Below, in pieces: positions 3,269 through 23,078 of a stretch of 27,327 nt of DNA. The notes beneath the pieces were generated by a model, which worked only from the letters and a program-made list of their open reading frames with translations, was not told the origin of the DNA and ran no database searches. A program made the position numbers and the translations under genes. Positions within the stretch are counted from its first letter, which is position 1. Every line of letters begins with the position of its first letter. Origin of the DNA: a virus; the IMG/VR virus record IMGVR_UViG_3300042484_000673, positions 1-27,327 of that record, one strand, 5' to 3'.

Positions 3269-4045
3269 TTATGCTGCCTCCTGCATCTTAATAGTAAACT
3301 TATAGTCACCAACAGGATACTTCACGAAACCGCTGGTATCTTTCTTGGCCTTACCTTTGGCATATAGACCAACCACACAACCTTTTGGATCAAGAAAACG
3401 CAAATCGCTATCATCACCATTAAATACGGATAGATTATGGTTGAAGAATTTCTTAGGCATTGCAGTACCTTTCTTAATGCCAAACACCACAGCAATATTC
3501 AAACCTTCAGTAACCGCACGCTTACAATCTAAGTAATTACCATCTGCCATGCTAAAGGTCAAATGGTAATTGGATATACCAGTCACCTTACGACCAATGA
3601 CCTTGGTATAGTCATAGAATTGCACATCAGGGAATGCCGCAAATATGTTAGTGAAAACTTCACCACCACGCACCACCTCATACTTTTCCCATGATAAATC
3701 AGAGGTGCCATTCAAGCGAAATACAGGTACGAGACCTTTCTTAGCAGATTGCTTAATCGCCAATTCAATATCAGCAACTAACCACTCCATGAAATACTTC
3801 CGCTCTTCAAAGAAAAATGCCGTTTTACGCATCCGTGCTTCTTGAATAACATTGGTGGTCGTACCTTTCTTGAATAGACCACCACGACCTGCCGTATTCA
3901 AACAGGCGGATTTGCATCCGGCCGTTGCCTTTGGACAGGTATTATAACCAGAAAGGTCAGCAGGCGCAAGATGCAATATGTAAGTATTGTAACCTTGTGC
4001 CAAACCTTTCAGTATCTTAGGATTGCCAGTAGATAATAATTTCAT
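3269..4045 (-). CDS. DUF7227-like conserved phage protein with Cys motif
   Basis: The product is 258 residues from the ATG at 4045 (MKLLSTGNPKIL). Near the N-terminus it carries HLAPADLSGYNTCP followed by CKSACLNTAGRGG, a three-to-four-cysteine cluster. Further on are RLNGTSDLSWEKY and FPDVQFYDYTKV, all hallmarks of a phage family I recall as DUF7227. The biochemical activity is unknown to me; the Cys cluster suggests a metal or cofactor site. It is the first gene behind the promoter at 4076-4103. The family label is from memory and unverified. Confidence 0.75.
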   Translation of the reverse strand: MKLLSTGNPKILKGLAQGYNTYILHLAPADLSGYNTCPKATAGCKSACLNTAGRGGLFKKGTTTNVIQEARMRKTAFFFEERKYFMEWLVADIELAIKQSAKKGLVPVFRLNGTSDLSWEKYEVVRGGEVFTNIFAAFPDVQFYDYTKVIGRKVTGISNYHLTFSMADGNYLDCKRAVTEGLNIAVVFGIKKGTAMPKKFFNHNLSVFNGDDSDLRFLDPKGCVVGLYAKGKAKKDTSGFVKYPVGDYKFTIKMQEAA

Positions 4046-8869: not shown

Positions 8870-9198
8870 CCAGTCCATCTAATTGTACCATATTCTTTTC
8901 GTATAACATTGCCACGAGGAAAGTTTTTAGCTGGAGCTTTCCAACTTGCCGCTTTCCAAATATCGCCAGTATTCAAATCAATGAATGAATGGCAACTTCT
9001 TTGTTTCAAGGATGACCCATGGTCATACCAATGAAAAATTCTTACATACTTATTACCAGCATCAAAACCTGTGGTAAATCCAAGGTCGTTTTTGAATTGG
9101 CATTTATCTTGATAAGAAGCATAATTACTTTCAATATATTTTTGGTATTCTTCAATATGTGGAAGAAGTTTTAAAAGCTTTTCACCTGATTTAGTCAT
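8863..9198 (-). CDS. Conserved hypothetical with GDIWKAASWKAPAK motif (111 aa)
   Basis: The ATG at 9198 (MTKSGEKLLK) is preferred because GGGA lies six bases before it; an upstream ATG at 9210 has no ribosome site. The C-terminal half has FIDLNTGDIWKAASWKAPA followed by RGNV, a motif I recall in small proteins of many phages and large DNA viruses, without a known activity. The N-terminal half is helical. It stands alone behind a strong promoter and a highly structured leader, so its expression is probably controlled at the RNA level. Confidence 0.72.
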   Translation of the reverse strand: MTKSGEKLLKLLPHIEEYQKYIESNYASYQDKCQFKNDLGFTTGFDAGNKYVRIFHWYDHGSSLKQRSCHSFIDLNTGDIWKAASWKAPAKNFPRGNVIRKEYGTIRWTGC

Positions 9199-9316
9199 AA
9201 TATATCCCATAATAAAAAGCTAGTTTTTCTTTAAGGCCTATAACTAGCAAAAATAGGCCGCTTCAGTTTTGTGAGATTTATGGTCCTCACCGGACGGCAC
9301 CGCCCTTGACCACTTG
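9199..9316 (-). promoter_or_regulatory. Structured 5' leader: two tandem H-type pseudoknots
   Basis: From the predicted transcription start (about 9316), the RNA can form UGGUC (9312-9308)/GACCA (9285-9281) interleaved with GUGAG (9290-9286)/CUCAC (9275-9271). It can then form GGCCUAU (9259-9253)/AUAGGCC (9241-9235) interleaved with GCUAGUU (9248-9242)/AACUAGC (9225-9219). In each case the second arm abuts the third with no linker. The last arm is followed by UUUUU and then the GGGA ribosome site, so a terminator alternative also exists. A riboswitch or regulatory RNA is inferred. Confidence 0.6.
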
Positions 9317-9322
9317 ATACCA

Positions 9323-9350
9323 ATTATAACACAACCACCTATATTGTCAA
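9323..9350 (-). promoter_or_regulatory. Consensus sigma70 promoter
   Basis: The minus strand reads TTGACA (9350-9345), 16-bp spacer, TATAAT (9328-9323), both hexamers perfect. An inverted repeat GTTGTT-N4-AACAAC (9357-9372) ends six bases upstream of the -35, the same spacing as at the 1229-1256 promoter. Confidence 0.85.
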
Positions 9351-10208: not shown

Positions 10209-10402
10209 TTATCTTCTCCAAAAGCGTATTTTTTGGCAGCTTCTTCTGCTTCTTCTTCGGTGTTATAAAACTCGGTTTTAAATAAATCAGACTCTTTAAA
10301 AAAGTCCACAACATATGGTGCCATGATACACGATGCCACAAATAATATATCAGCGTGGCGGTGTCCATGAGCACCAAAAAAAGATACTAACTGTTCTATC
10401 AT
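10205..10402 (-). CDS. Hypothetical protein (65 aa)
   Basis: Start codon overlaps the end of the CobT-like gene by four bases, consistent with coupling. The N-terminal half contains a His-rich GAHGHRH segment and a moderately hydrophobic stretch (ADILFVASCIMAPYVV) that could be buried or membrane-associated. The C-terminal half is an acidic/Ala helix. Function unknown. Confidence 0.66.
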   Translation of the reverse strand: MIEQLVSFFGAHGHRHADILFVASCIMAPYVVDFFKESDLFKTEFYNTEEEAEEAAKKYAFGEDK

Positions 10403-12516
10403 GATATCATTCCTATGAATCGGTTAAGCACAACACGGTTTGCAACACGACCACCAGCATACTTACTAAATGCGGATACGAGACCACGAGTGGTGGCATT
10501 TTCTTTTACTTCAAAGGTACTATCTTCTTCGGTATTCAATGCTTCAGAACGGAGAATATAATACTCATCAAAACCAGCCGTAGTAACAACTGCAAATTTG
10601 GTTTTACGGAATGAAGCCTTGATAGTTTCGTAATTGGCTGTGCGTGGATAAAAGTCATATATTTTACGACCAAACTCACGACCAGAAATTACATAAAATC
10701 CTAATACATTACAATTGGTACGAGCTTTCAACAACTTCACATATGCACCCGTATGATTAGCACAATTATATATGTTATCAACAATTTCTTGATGTTTGGT
10801 TATTGGATCACGAATAATCAAACCAAAATTATCAAGACCATAATCTTTACCAATTCTGAGATATTTACCATCATCACTCATATCATAAGTTTGACGGAGT
10901 GTATGACCTTCACCATCTGTTAAGAATACAGAATTAACAATTTGTAACTTGTAATGTTTCTGAAATGCTGGAATAATTTCCATAGCGGCAATAACTGCTT
11001 CATTCAATGGTGTACCACCCATAGCCATAAAGGTGGGTGTATATCGTTGATTGTTAGCTATGAATGTCAAAATTTTGGCCGCCTTAGTAAATTCACCAGC
11101 ACTCATTTTACTTGACAATAGATTCATCAGGTAAAAAGGATTACTTGCAATATCACCTTTCTTTGGAGGAATTTGATATTGGAGTGAATTGAAACTTTCA
11201 GGTGAAGCGAAAGCATATACATCATAAGGAATGTTTACTTTCTTGCAAAACATCACCAGACTGATTAATTGTTTTACGGTGTTTGAAATGTGGTCGTGCA
11301 TTGAACCAGACCAATCTAAGAACATAACAAGACCATGAGATTTACCATTTGGTACTACCGAAATCTTTTTAAAGATATCATCATTGAATTGATAAGAGAA
11401 AATCTTCTTCATATCAAGGTCACCAGTTTTGGCAGTAGATGCACGTTTTAACTGGTCGGCATTTTTACGCAATTCGAATTCTTTAACAAGATAGGAAACT
11501 ACCTTGTTTGTATCACGGCGTAATTTATTATATTGACCATTTTCTATTCTGTCAAAATCCATTGCCCAATTAGAATATTCGCCTTCAATTTTTTTGTATA
11601 ATTCTTTATAGGTAAGAATACCCTTCTTCATATCAAACTTGGGAATGTTACCATACATATAGTTCTTTGCATTTTCAGCAAATAACTTTTTCTCATTTTG
11701 TTTGAATGCTTCATCGGTGAAAGCACGAACATTATCCTGTTCTACTTCTTTATGTTCAAAGCGGTCATCATCACCAATAATTTCGGTATCTTCATCTTCG
11801 CCGTCATTATAATCATCAGAAGCTCGTTTTGAACCAGATTCGGTTTCTTCACCTTCCTCGGTTTCATCACCAAAGTCCTCGTCCCATTCATTGGCAAAAT
11901 CATCACCATTATCACCATCTTCATCATCTTCGGAATCTGGTGCATTGGCTTTACGTTCTTCTTCTTTTTGTTTCATAAAAGCAAGAACTTTTTGAGCCAC
12001 AACTAAAACATCATCATAACTTTCGGTGGACTCAATCTCATCAAGCAATTTTCTTTCTTCTACATCAAAACGAATACCAAGCATAGCACCGCCTTTGCTG
12101 TGCATATTCACTCGGTCAACAAAATTCAATTCATTCAAATCAACACCATTGGTGCCAAAGAAATCTTTTTGAGTTAGTTCAACATATGCTTTTGTGAAAG
12201 AAGAACGGAGACCGGGATATTTGTATTTGACTTTCTTTTCAATACGAACATCTTCAATCACATTTGAAATAGATTGTGGAATTTTTAAATCTCTGGCACG
12301 GATAAGGCCAGATTCGGGAGTATATAATGCGTGGCCAACTTCATGGCCAACAAAAAGGTCATAAAGATAACCAGAAATATTCTTATCTAAAACAGGAATT
12401 GTCAAAACACGATTTTTGACATCAAAGCAAGCAGTAGGAACATTGCGCTGTTCCACTACTAAGTTCTCGGTAGCCATCAATTTGGCTAAAAGTGATTTGG
12501 ATTCAAGTAATTGCAT
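10399..12516 (-). CDS. CobT-like protein with HEXXH and VWA/MIDAS domains (705 aa)
   Basis: The ATG has TTAGGAG upstream. Residues 58-62 are HEVGH, followed by NVIEDVRIE (85-93), the pattern of a zinc metallopeptidase-like site. Residues 194-258 are a long acidic, low-complexity linker. The C-terminal half is a von Willebrand A domain with MIDAS elements DWSGSM (401-406), GGTPL (500-504) and TDGEG (533-537). The layout recalls cobaltochelatase CobT and the CobT-like proteins reported in T4-like marine phages, where a CobS-type AAA+ ATPase is the usual partner. No CobS is seen in this window. A role as a VWA adaptor or peptidase in protein remodelling is inferred. Confidence 0.85.
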   Translation of the reverse strand: MQLLESKSLLAKLMATENLVVEQRNVPTACFDVKNRVLTIPVLDKNISGYLYDLFVGHEVGHALYTPESGLIRARDLKIPQSISNVIEDVRIEKKVKYKYPGLRSSFTKAYVELTQKDFFGTNGVDLNELNFVDRVNMHSKGGAMLGIRFDVEERKLLDEIESTESYDDVLVVAQKVLAFMKQKEEERKANAPDSEDDEDGDNGDDFANEWDEDFGDETEEGEETESGSKRASDDYNDGEDEDTEIIGDDDRFEHKEVEQDNVRAFTDEAFKQNEKKLFAENAKNYMYGNIPKFDMKKGILTYKELYKKIEGEYSNWAMDFDRIENGQYNKLRRDTNKVVSYLVKEFELRKNADQLKRASTAKTGDLDMKKIFSYQFNDDIFKKISVVPNGKSHGLVMFLDWSGSMHDHISNTVKQLISLVMFCKKVNIPYDVYAFASPESFNSLQYQIPPKKGDIASNPFYLMNLLSSKMSAGEFTKAAKILTFIANNQRYTPTFMAMGGTPLNEAVIAAMEIIPAFQKHYKLQIVNSVFLTDGEGHTLRQTYDMSDDGKYLRIGKDYGLDNFGLIIRDPITKHQEIVDNIYNCANHTGAYVKLLKARTNCNVLGFYVISGREFGRKIYDFYPRTANYETIKASFRKTKFAVVTTAGFDEYYILRSEALNTEEDSTFEVKENATTRGLVSAFSKYAGGRVANRVVLNRFIGMIS

Positions 12517-22354: not shown

Positions 22355-22572
22355 TTTTCTTCCTTTTTGGCAAATTTTTCTGAAGCAGTAAAACCTAATC
22401 CTGCAATCACCAAGTATATCATTGAATCAAATAATGATGCAGTTACTTTATAACCATGTATGTCAGCAACAAAACCATAAACACATACAATAAACGCCAA
22501 TAGTGTTATAACTCTTTTACTACTAACAGAGCCATTAATACCATCAGACAACATACTATTTAACCAGTTCAT
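22351..22572 (-). CDS. Two-span holin-like membrane protein (73 aa)
   Basis: The length and two hydrophobic segments (VITLLAFIVCVYGFVADI and the LFDSMIYLVIAGLGFTA region), with a short charged tail (EKFAKKEEK), fit small class II/III holin-like proteins. Holins form the membrane lesion that releases the endolysin. The assignment rests on topology and on the location two genes from the GH19 endolysin. It overlaps the next gene by one base. Confidence 0.65.
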   Translation of the reverse strand: MNWLNSMLSDGINGSVSSKRVITLLAFIVCVYGFVADIHGYKVTASLFDSMIYLVIAGLGFTASEKFAKKEEK

Positions 22573-23078
22573 TATAGTTCAGGTTGTGGTGGTTGAACTG
22601 GTGCAGGTTTACCACCAAATCCTGTTACAACTGCTGGTGTAAATGGTGAAACCACAGGAGTTCCTCCGACTGATCCAAAGCTTGGTGTTGGCATCACGTT
22701 TGATCCAACTGCTCCAAAACTTGTTGTTGGTGTGGGTGGTGCTGTTGGTGCAGGCGATACTGTTGTTGTTCTATTGGCTAATTCCAATGCTCTCTTTTGT
22801 GCATCTTTGTCACCGCCAGCCAACATGATACCTGATAATGTACCAGTTAAGAATGTGGCGATAGGTATAATCAACTCAAAGAATTTTTGGTCAATTGGAG
22901 AAATAGCATTAAGTGGTTGTGTTACAAAAATTAAAGAGTATAATACCACAAACACAATACCAAACAATGTAAGTGATAAACAGATACCAATGAAGAACTT
23001 CAGACGAGCCATTAACTGCTCTTCTGTATACATGAAGTCTGGTTCTAGTTGTTTTGGTTCTTTATTAAATAAATTCAT
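22572..23078 (-). CDS. Membrane protein with Pro/Thr/Gly-rich tail, lysis cassette (168 aa)
   Basis: The ATG at 23078 (MNLFNKEP) overlaps the upstream TGA; AGGAG lies ten bases before it, and a TTG at 23084 is rejected. Two membrane segments (about 30-50 and 69-90, the second ending SGIMLAGGDKDAQ) precede a disordered Pro/Thr/Gly-rich tail of about 65 residues. A similar protein is, from memory, widespread in T4-like marine phages. It may be the holin or a holin partner; the long tail is unusual for a holin. Confidence 0.72.
   Translation of the reverse strand: MNLFNKEPKQLEPDFMYTEEQLMARLKFFIGICLSLTLFGIVFVVLYSLIFVTQPLNAISPIDQKFFELIIPIATFLTGTLSGIMLAGGDKDAQKRALELANRTTTVSPAPTAPPTPTTSFGAVGSNVMPTPSFGSVGGTPVVSPFTPAVVTGFGGKPAPVQPPQPEL

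Follow-up and report, generated by a model that had tools for sequence, protein, structure and literature searches.

A candidate structured RNA element with two tandem pseudoknots upstream of a DUF7717 gene in a T4-type phage

Compact H-type folds beside a ribosome site are found in the SAM-II and preQ1-I/II riboswitches. Pseudoknots are also present in phage RNAs: the translational operator of gene 32 in T4 and RB69 consists of a 5' pseudoknot and a following unstructured stretch with the ribosome site, which serves autogenous repression (PMC535899), and phage PhiTE carries pseudo-ToxI, a pseudoknot decoy RNA (PMC3475682). A leader with the potential for two such folds was analysed in a 27,327-base virus record, which was examined at its full length and is referred to here as the window. 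Its genes are oriented mainly on the minus strand, and several of them (for a T4 RNase H-like exonuclease, both ribonucleotide reductase subunits and a primase) resemble those of T4-type phages. A member of a 'peptidase' protein family that is otherwise almost confined to cyanophages is also encoded; this 705-aa protein (10402-12516, minus strand; phrog_459) has no Pfam match and shows approximately 35% identity to its matches in named phages, almost all of which are cyanophages.

The initial annotation had proposed two tandem H-type pseudoknots with exact arms and abutting third arms, a perfect sigma70 promoter upstream of them and a 111-aa phage gene just downstream. All of these features were recovered, the pseudoknots being read directly in the minus strand (Table 1). 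In the first pseudoknot (PK1), S1 pairs UGGUC (9312-9308) with GACCA (9285-9281) and can be extended by a G-U pair (9313/9280), and S2 pairs GUGAG (9290-9286) with CUCAC (9275-9271). Its first loop of 17 nt has room for a 5-bp hairpin (GGGCG/CGUCC, 9305-9301/9296-9292), which goes beyond that annotation. In the second pseudoknot (PK2), S1 pairs GGCCUAU (9259-9253) with AUAGGCC (9241-9235), S2 pairs GCUAGUU (9248-9242) with AACUAGC (9225-9219), and the loops comprise a U-rich first one (UUUU, 9252-9249) and an A-rich last one (UUAAAGAAA, 9234-9226). Every arm is an exact complement and the third arm adjoins the second in both pseudoknots, which are unlike each other in sequence and size. The 3' end of PK2 lies 21 nt upstream of the DUF7717 start codon. 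Promoter, element and gene share one orientation in every copy, with the element directly between the other two, and the promoter is kept in relatives both with and without the element. Judging from the promoter position, transcription would be expected to start near 9316-9315; the leader is real as DNA, and the leader transcript is predicted.

Table 1. Positions of the promoter, the element with its parts, and the downstream gene in the window
Feature	Coordinates	Strand	Remarks
Sigma70 promoter (TTGACA-N16-TATAAT)	9323..9350	-	TTGACA from 9350, 16-nt spacer, TATAAT ending at 9323; TG before -10; 12/12 consensus matches
Structured RNA element, 97 nt	9219..9315	-	Seven copies: the window plus six related contigs
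PK1, H-type, 5/5 bp	9271..9313	-	Exact arms read in the sequence
Linker PK1-PK2	9260..9270	-	Substitutions and a 1-nt deletion among copies
PK2, H-type, 7/7 bp	9219..9259	-	Exact arms; invariant in all seven copies
U5 run, Shine-Dalgarno, spacer	9199..9218	-	U5 at 9218-9214; GGGA at 9208-9205; ATG at 9198
DUF7717 gene, 111 aa	8863..9198	-	Family matches (phrog_5014 / phrog_818)

In several promoters of this phage family, the -35 box is preceded, at a distance of about 10-25 bp, by an inverted repeat, GTTGT-n-ACAAC, or by the ACAAC half alone. In the window it is located at 9385-9355 (minus strand) and near the promoters at 1256, 4103 and 12570 (minus strand), and the repeat or its half was also found in the leaders of the related loci L007, L014, L015, L053 and L061. 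It is a possible operator or terminator common to the promoters of the phage family.

The pairing potential of the leader exceeds chance expectation. When the 107-nt leader was shuffled 4000 times with its dinucleotides preserved, a 5/5 pseudoknot of any kind was found in 164 shuffles, a 7/7 pseudoknot in two, and two pseudoknots in tandem in none; since this test was made after the structure had been seen, its significance is somewhat overstated. A scan of the whole window detected two other large exact pseudoknots, both in coding sequence (22563-22617 and 3853-3901), so that a 7/7 pseudoknot somewhere in the window is less special, and the unusual feature is the tandem arrangement within a short non-coding leader. 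The one at 22563-22617 (minus strand) is a larger exact pseudoknot with stems of 7 and 9 bp. It covers the stop codon of an ORF ending at 22572 together with the beginning of the following ORF, the two overlapping in TAATG, and could have a role in translational coupling or reflect chance pairing in repetitive coding sequence.

Folding was assessed by prediction. The predicted pairing probability was 0.998 for PK2 S1 and about 0.78 for PK1 S1, values that cover nested stems only, the crossing stems being outside the scoring of the program. Stem stacking was estimated at -14.5 and -12.1 kcal/mol for PK2 and at -10.0 and -8.8 kcal/mol for PK1. Loop lengths such as those of PK2 suit the crossing of 7-bp grooves in H-type knots. 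The geometry as a whole (stacking sums, abutting third arm, and the U-rich first and A-rich last loops of PK2) agrees with an H-type knot. Thus, folding of PK2 appears plausible from stacking and loop lengths, and that of PK1 somewhat less so.

The distribution of the element was examined in relatives and in several sequence collections. A protein search with DUF7717 yielded 22 loci and an alignment-based search 38 loci, and six viral contigs (L001-L006) were found to carry the element, with 96-98% identity over 114 nt. When IMG/VR was searched with exact and loop-only patterns taken from several regions of the element, only these contigs and chance matches were returned; in the loop-only scan (104 stretches), the other two-stem sequences were only low-complexity A/T stretches dependent on G-U pairs. 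No DNA similarity to the leader was detected in the phage collection, and plasmids gave two 21-nt chance matches. Two exact patterns had zero and four matches in a bacterial and archaeal genome collection, and the surroundings of these four did not resemble the element. A covariance model run over the loci of relatives recovered the element alone (next match, E 0.59), with no diverged or second copy. The Rfam search called for by the initial annotation gave no match at the gathering score, and when it was extended to E 10 the best match (E 2.5) was far below gathering.

The position between promoter and DUF7717 is variable among related phages. The element is missing from L012, where DUF7717 shows 91% identity and where the gene is still preceded by promoter and ribosome site (TATAATGGTATCGTAAACTGAGAAAGGTTATATTATG). 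An ORF of about 75 aa occupies the position of the element in L007-L011, L013 and L014, and a different ORF of about 50 aa occupies it in L015-L017 and L053-L061. Between the conserved promoter and DUF7717, itself conserved, lies a variable slot, in which relatives carry two or three unrelated small ORFs. Since the content of this slot changes between phages, the element appears to have entered or been exchanged at this position. The 3' limit of the exchanged segment is uncertain, as the U5 run and the following ATTATGGG resemble the spacer and start of the relatives' small ORF (GGAG-TTTTATTATGGG in L053, L057 and L059), and this stretch may be what is left of the start region of that ORF instead of belonging to the RNA element. 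Use of an ATG at 9210, in frame with the annotated start and four codons before it (MGYI-MTKSGEK), would give a product of 115 aa. This ATG directly follows TTTTTATT, is similar to the beginning of the small ORF in L053, and may be left over from a lost slot ORF. Being nearly unchanged in close relatives and absent from a slightly more distant one, the element looks real, young and narrowly distributed.

The final 62 nt before the ATG, including all of PK2, show no difference across the seven copies. Between the two carrier clades, the DUF7717 gene differs at 16-19 of 333 bases and its four-fold sites at up to 7-8 of 36. This segment appears to be under selection because it is identical in seven copies while four-fold sites differ; the conservation could partly reflect recent recombination, and it would also fit constraints other than RNA structure. 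The few changes seen within the element are mostly located in the linker (9266-9262, including the 1-nt deletion in L002) and in the PK1 loop hairpin (G9303 to U). In L001, G9285 to A breaks the C9308-G9285 pair of PK1 S1. Among the four distinct, near-identical sequences, 97.5% of cells are paired under the named structure, and no compensatory change was found in any stem. A hidden leader peptide was also considered: a 19-codon GTG frame (9290) is the sole open one and loses its frame by the deletion in L002, so the element behaves as non-coding.

Taken together, the tentatively preferred explanation, with a probability somewhat short of even, is that the element is a lineage-specific structured 5' leader that would control mRNA stability or translation of DUF7717. 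Host RNA polymerase would start at about 9315, as suggested by the promoter, so that the transcript would begin within 2-3 nt of PK1. PK2 would follow and end at the upstream edge of the 30S ribosome position, leaving the U-rich single strand and the Shine-Dalgarno sequence free on its 3' side. The knots at the 5' terminus might then shield the DUF7717 mRNA from end-dependent decay, and/or offer a protein a binding place next to the ribosome site, as the gene 32 leader of T4 does for gp32. This proposal is supported by the contiguous layout of promoter, knots and gene, pairing beyond chance, a geometry that suits H-type knots, conservation, the non-coding behaviour of the element and the precedent of T4 gene 32; what it would add to these observations is a transcription start, folding of the RNA, action in cis and a binding partner. 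On the other hand, the small protein genes at the same position in relatives would fit an independent RNA cargo equally well, and the lack of any paired change among the four distinct sequences and the broken PK1 pair in L001 also count against it. Control by the element is not needed for the gene, because L012 and other relatives have DUF7717 without such a leader.

The downstream gene matches only DUF7717 and the phage families phrog_5014 and phrog_818. Its predicted fold (pLDDT 84) combines a long helix with a sheet of five strands, and comparison of the model with PDB gave no match with E <0.001, the best Z being 5.9 to unrelated proteins. Autoregulation is without structural support because the fold search found no nucleic-acid-binding relative of the model; the predicted fold hints at RNA binding neither way. 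Should the element fold and work as drawn, it would represent a family of phage RNAs not described before, in which the transcript opens directly with two knots, versus one in the classic example of T4. Close relatives with the same promoter and gene and without the element form a natural matched pair, which allows a direct test of what a double pseudoknot does when added to an mRNA, or of what carriage of the RNA as cargo does.

Several other explanations should be weighed against this leader model. The main rival is an independent small RNA of about 100 nt, made up of both pseudoknots and extending to the U5 run, with DUF7717 merely lying downstream. Such an RNA might act in trans by binding a host protein or by mimicking a host RNA, comparable to the PhiTE decoy. 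The promoter at the very start of the element and the U5 run at its end would suit such an RNA, the position is empty in L012 and filled by unrelated small protein genes in other relatives, implying cargo-like behaviour, and phage pseudoknot decoy RNAs are documented (PMC3475682). However, the two knots are dissimilar and hence form no ToxI-like repeat array, no Rfam family was matched even below threshold, and the element runs directly into the ribosome site of DUF7717; moreover, the U run is the common spacer of the ribosome site at this locus, where the terminator scan called nothing. An independent RNA thus appears rather unlikely, and a stand-alone double-pseudoknot cargo that would act in trans on a host factor, as a decoy or as an inhibitor of a ribonuclease or a defence, is considered unlikely as well, a little more so. 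That the element has no RNA function, its pairing being due to chance in a recent insert whose copies stay identical through recent descent or a role as DNA binding sites, would be consistent with the absence of covariation among four sequences, the one broken pair and the narrow distribution, but tandem knots in none of the 4000 shuffles and conservation well above that of synonymous sites make it improbable.

Switching mechanisms are likewise disfavoured. The initial annotation had noted that the last stem is followed by UUUUU and then by the ribosome site, and this layout was found; its reading as a terminator is weaker, because the position of the U run corresponds to the GGAG-TTTTATTATG spacer of relatives, in which TTTTATTATG recurs as a start-codon context at this locus. 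Attenuation, in which PK2 S2 and U5 would halt most transcripts and an anti-terminating factor or an alternative fold would permit read-through, draws on the invariance of the 7-bp S2 and its direct contact with the U run, but an intrinsic terminator combines a short-loop GC-rich hairpin with a U run, and PK2 S2 as a plain hairpin has a 16-nt loop. With no terminator-like site found there, the spacer of the relatives matching at the same place and no alternative anti-terminator fold known as conserved, attenuation carries a low probability. Switching of translation, another earlier suggestion, is unsupported in the form of hiding the Shine-Dalgarno sequence because predicted accessibility was inconsistent across copies and sequence lengths and an equally good anti-Shine-Dalgarno partner occurred in 57% of shuffles; the candidate pairing of AUCUCA with UGGGAU appeared in one fold and was rejected. 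A new class of metabolite riboswitch, also suggested earlier, has a superficial likeness to SAM-II and preQ1 in its compact knots with U-rich and A-rich loops directly upstream of the ribosome site. It is disfavoured by the narrow distribution and the absence from a relative with 91% identical DUF7717: seven near-identical copies are present in one phage lineage at a single downstream gene for a hypothetical protein, and two exact patterns found nothing resembling the element in the bacterial and archaeal genome collection. With no credible Rfam resemblance and no consistent switching of Shine-Dalgarno accessibility, it is very improbable. Of the initial interpretation, a structured, non-coding and conserved element is supported, and its more cautious options, a structured leader that may bind a protein and a small RNA, are retained. 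The element appears to be a new phage RNA element of narrow distribution.

Among known systems, the SAM-II and preQ1 riboswitches share with this locus the compact H-type pairing potential by the ribosome site, but the element has neither their core sequence nor an Rfam match, and it is not spread across genes or taxa. Pseudo-ToxI and type III antitoxins are likewise phage-borne, non-coding small knots, and the layout of promoter, knots, U run and gene is similar. Unlike ToxIN, CptIN, TenpIN or pseudo-ToxI, however, the element contains no tandem repeats of one pseudoknot unit and matches no Rfam family; the adjacent gene encodes DUF7717 rather than a ToxN-like endoribonuclease, and DUF7717 is not a toxin partner of the element, because many relatives have it without the element. 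Like the gene 32 leader of T4 and RB69, the present leader belongs to a T4-type phage and has H-type pseudoknot potential 5' of an A/U-rich stretch with the ribosome site. The differences are two knots here versus one (about 28 nt) in T4, a ribosome site that lacks a surrounding run of UUAAA repeats, and DUF7717 as the product instead of the single-strand binding protein gp32. Membership in the T4 gene 32 operator class fails for this last reason, and the gene 32 leader would still serve as the working analogy for this element.
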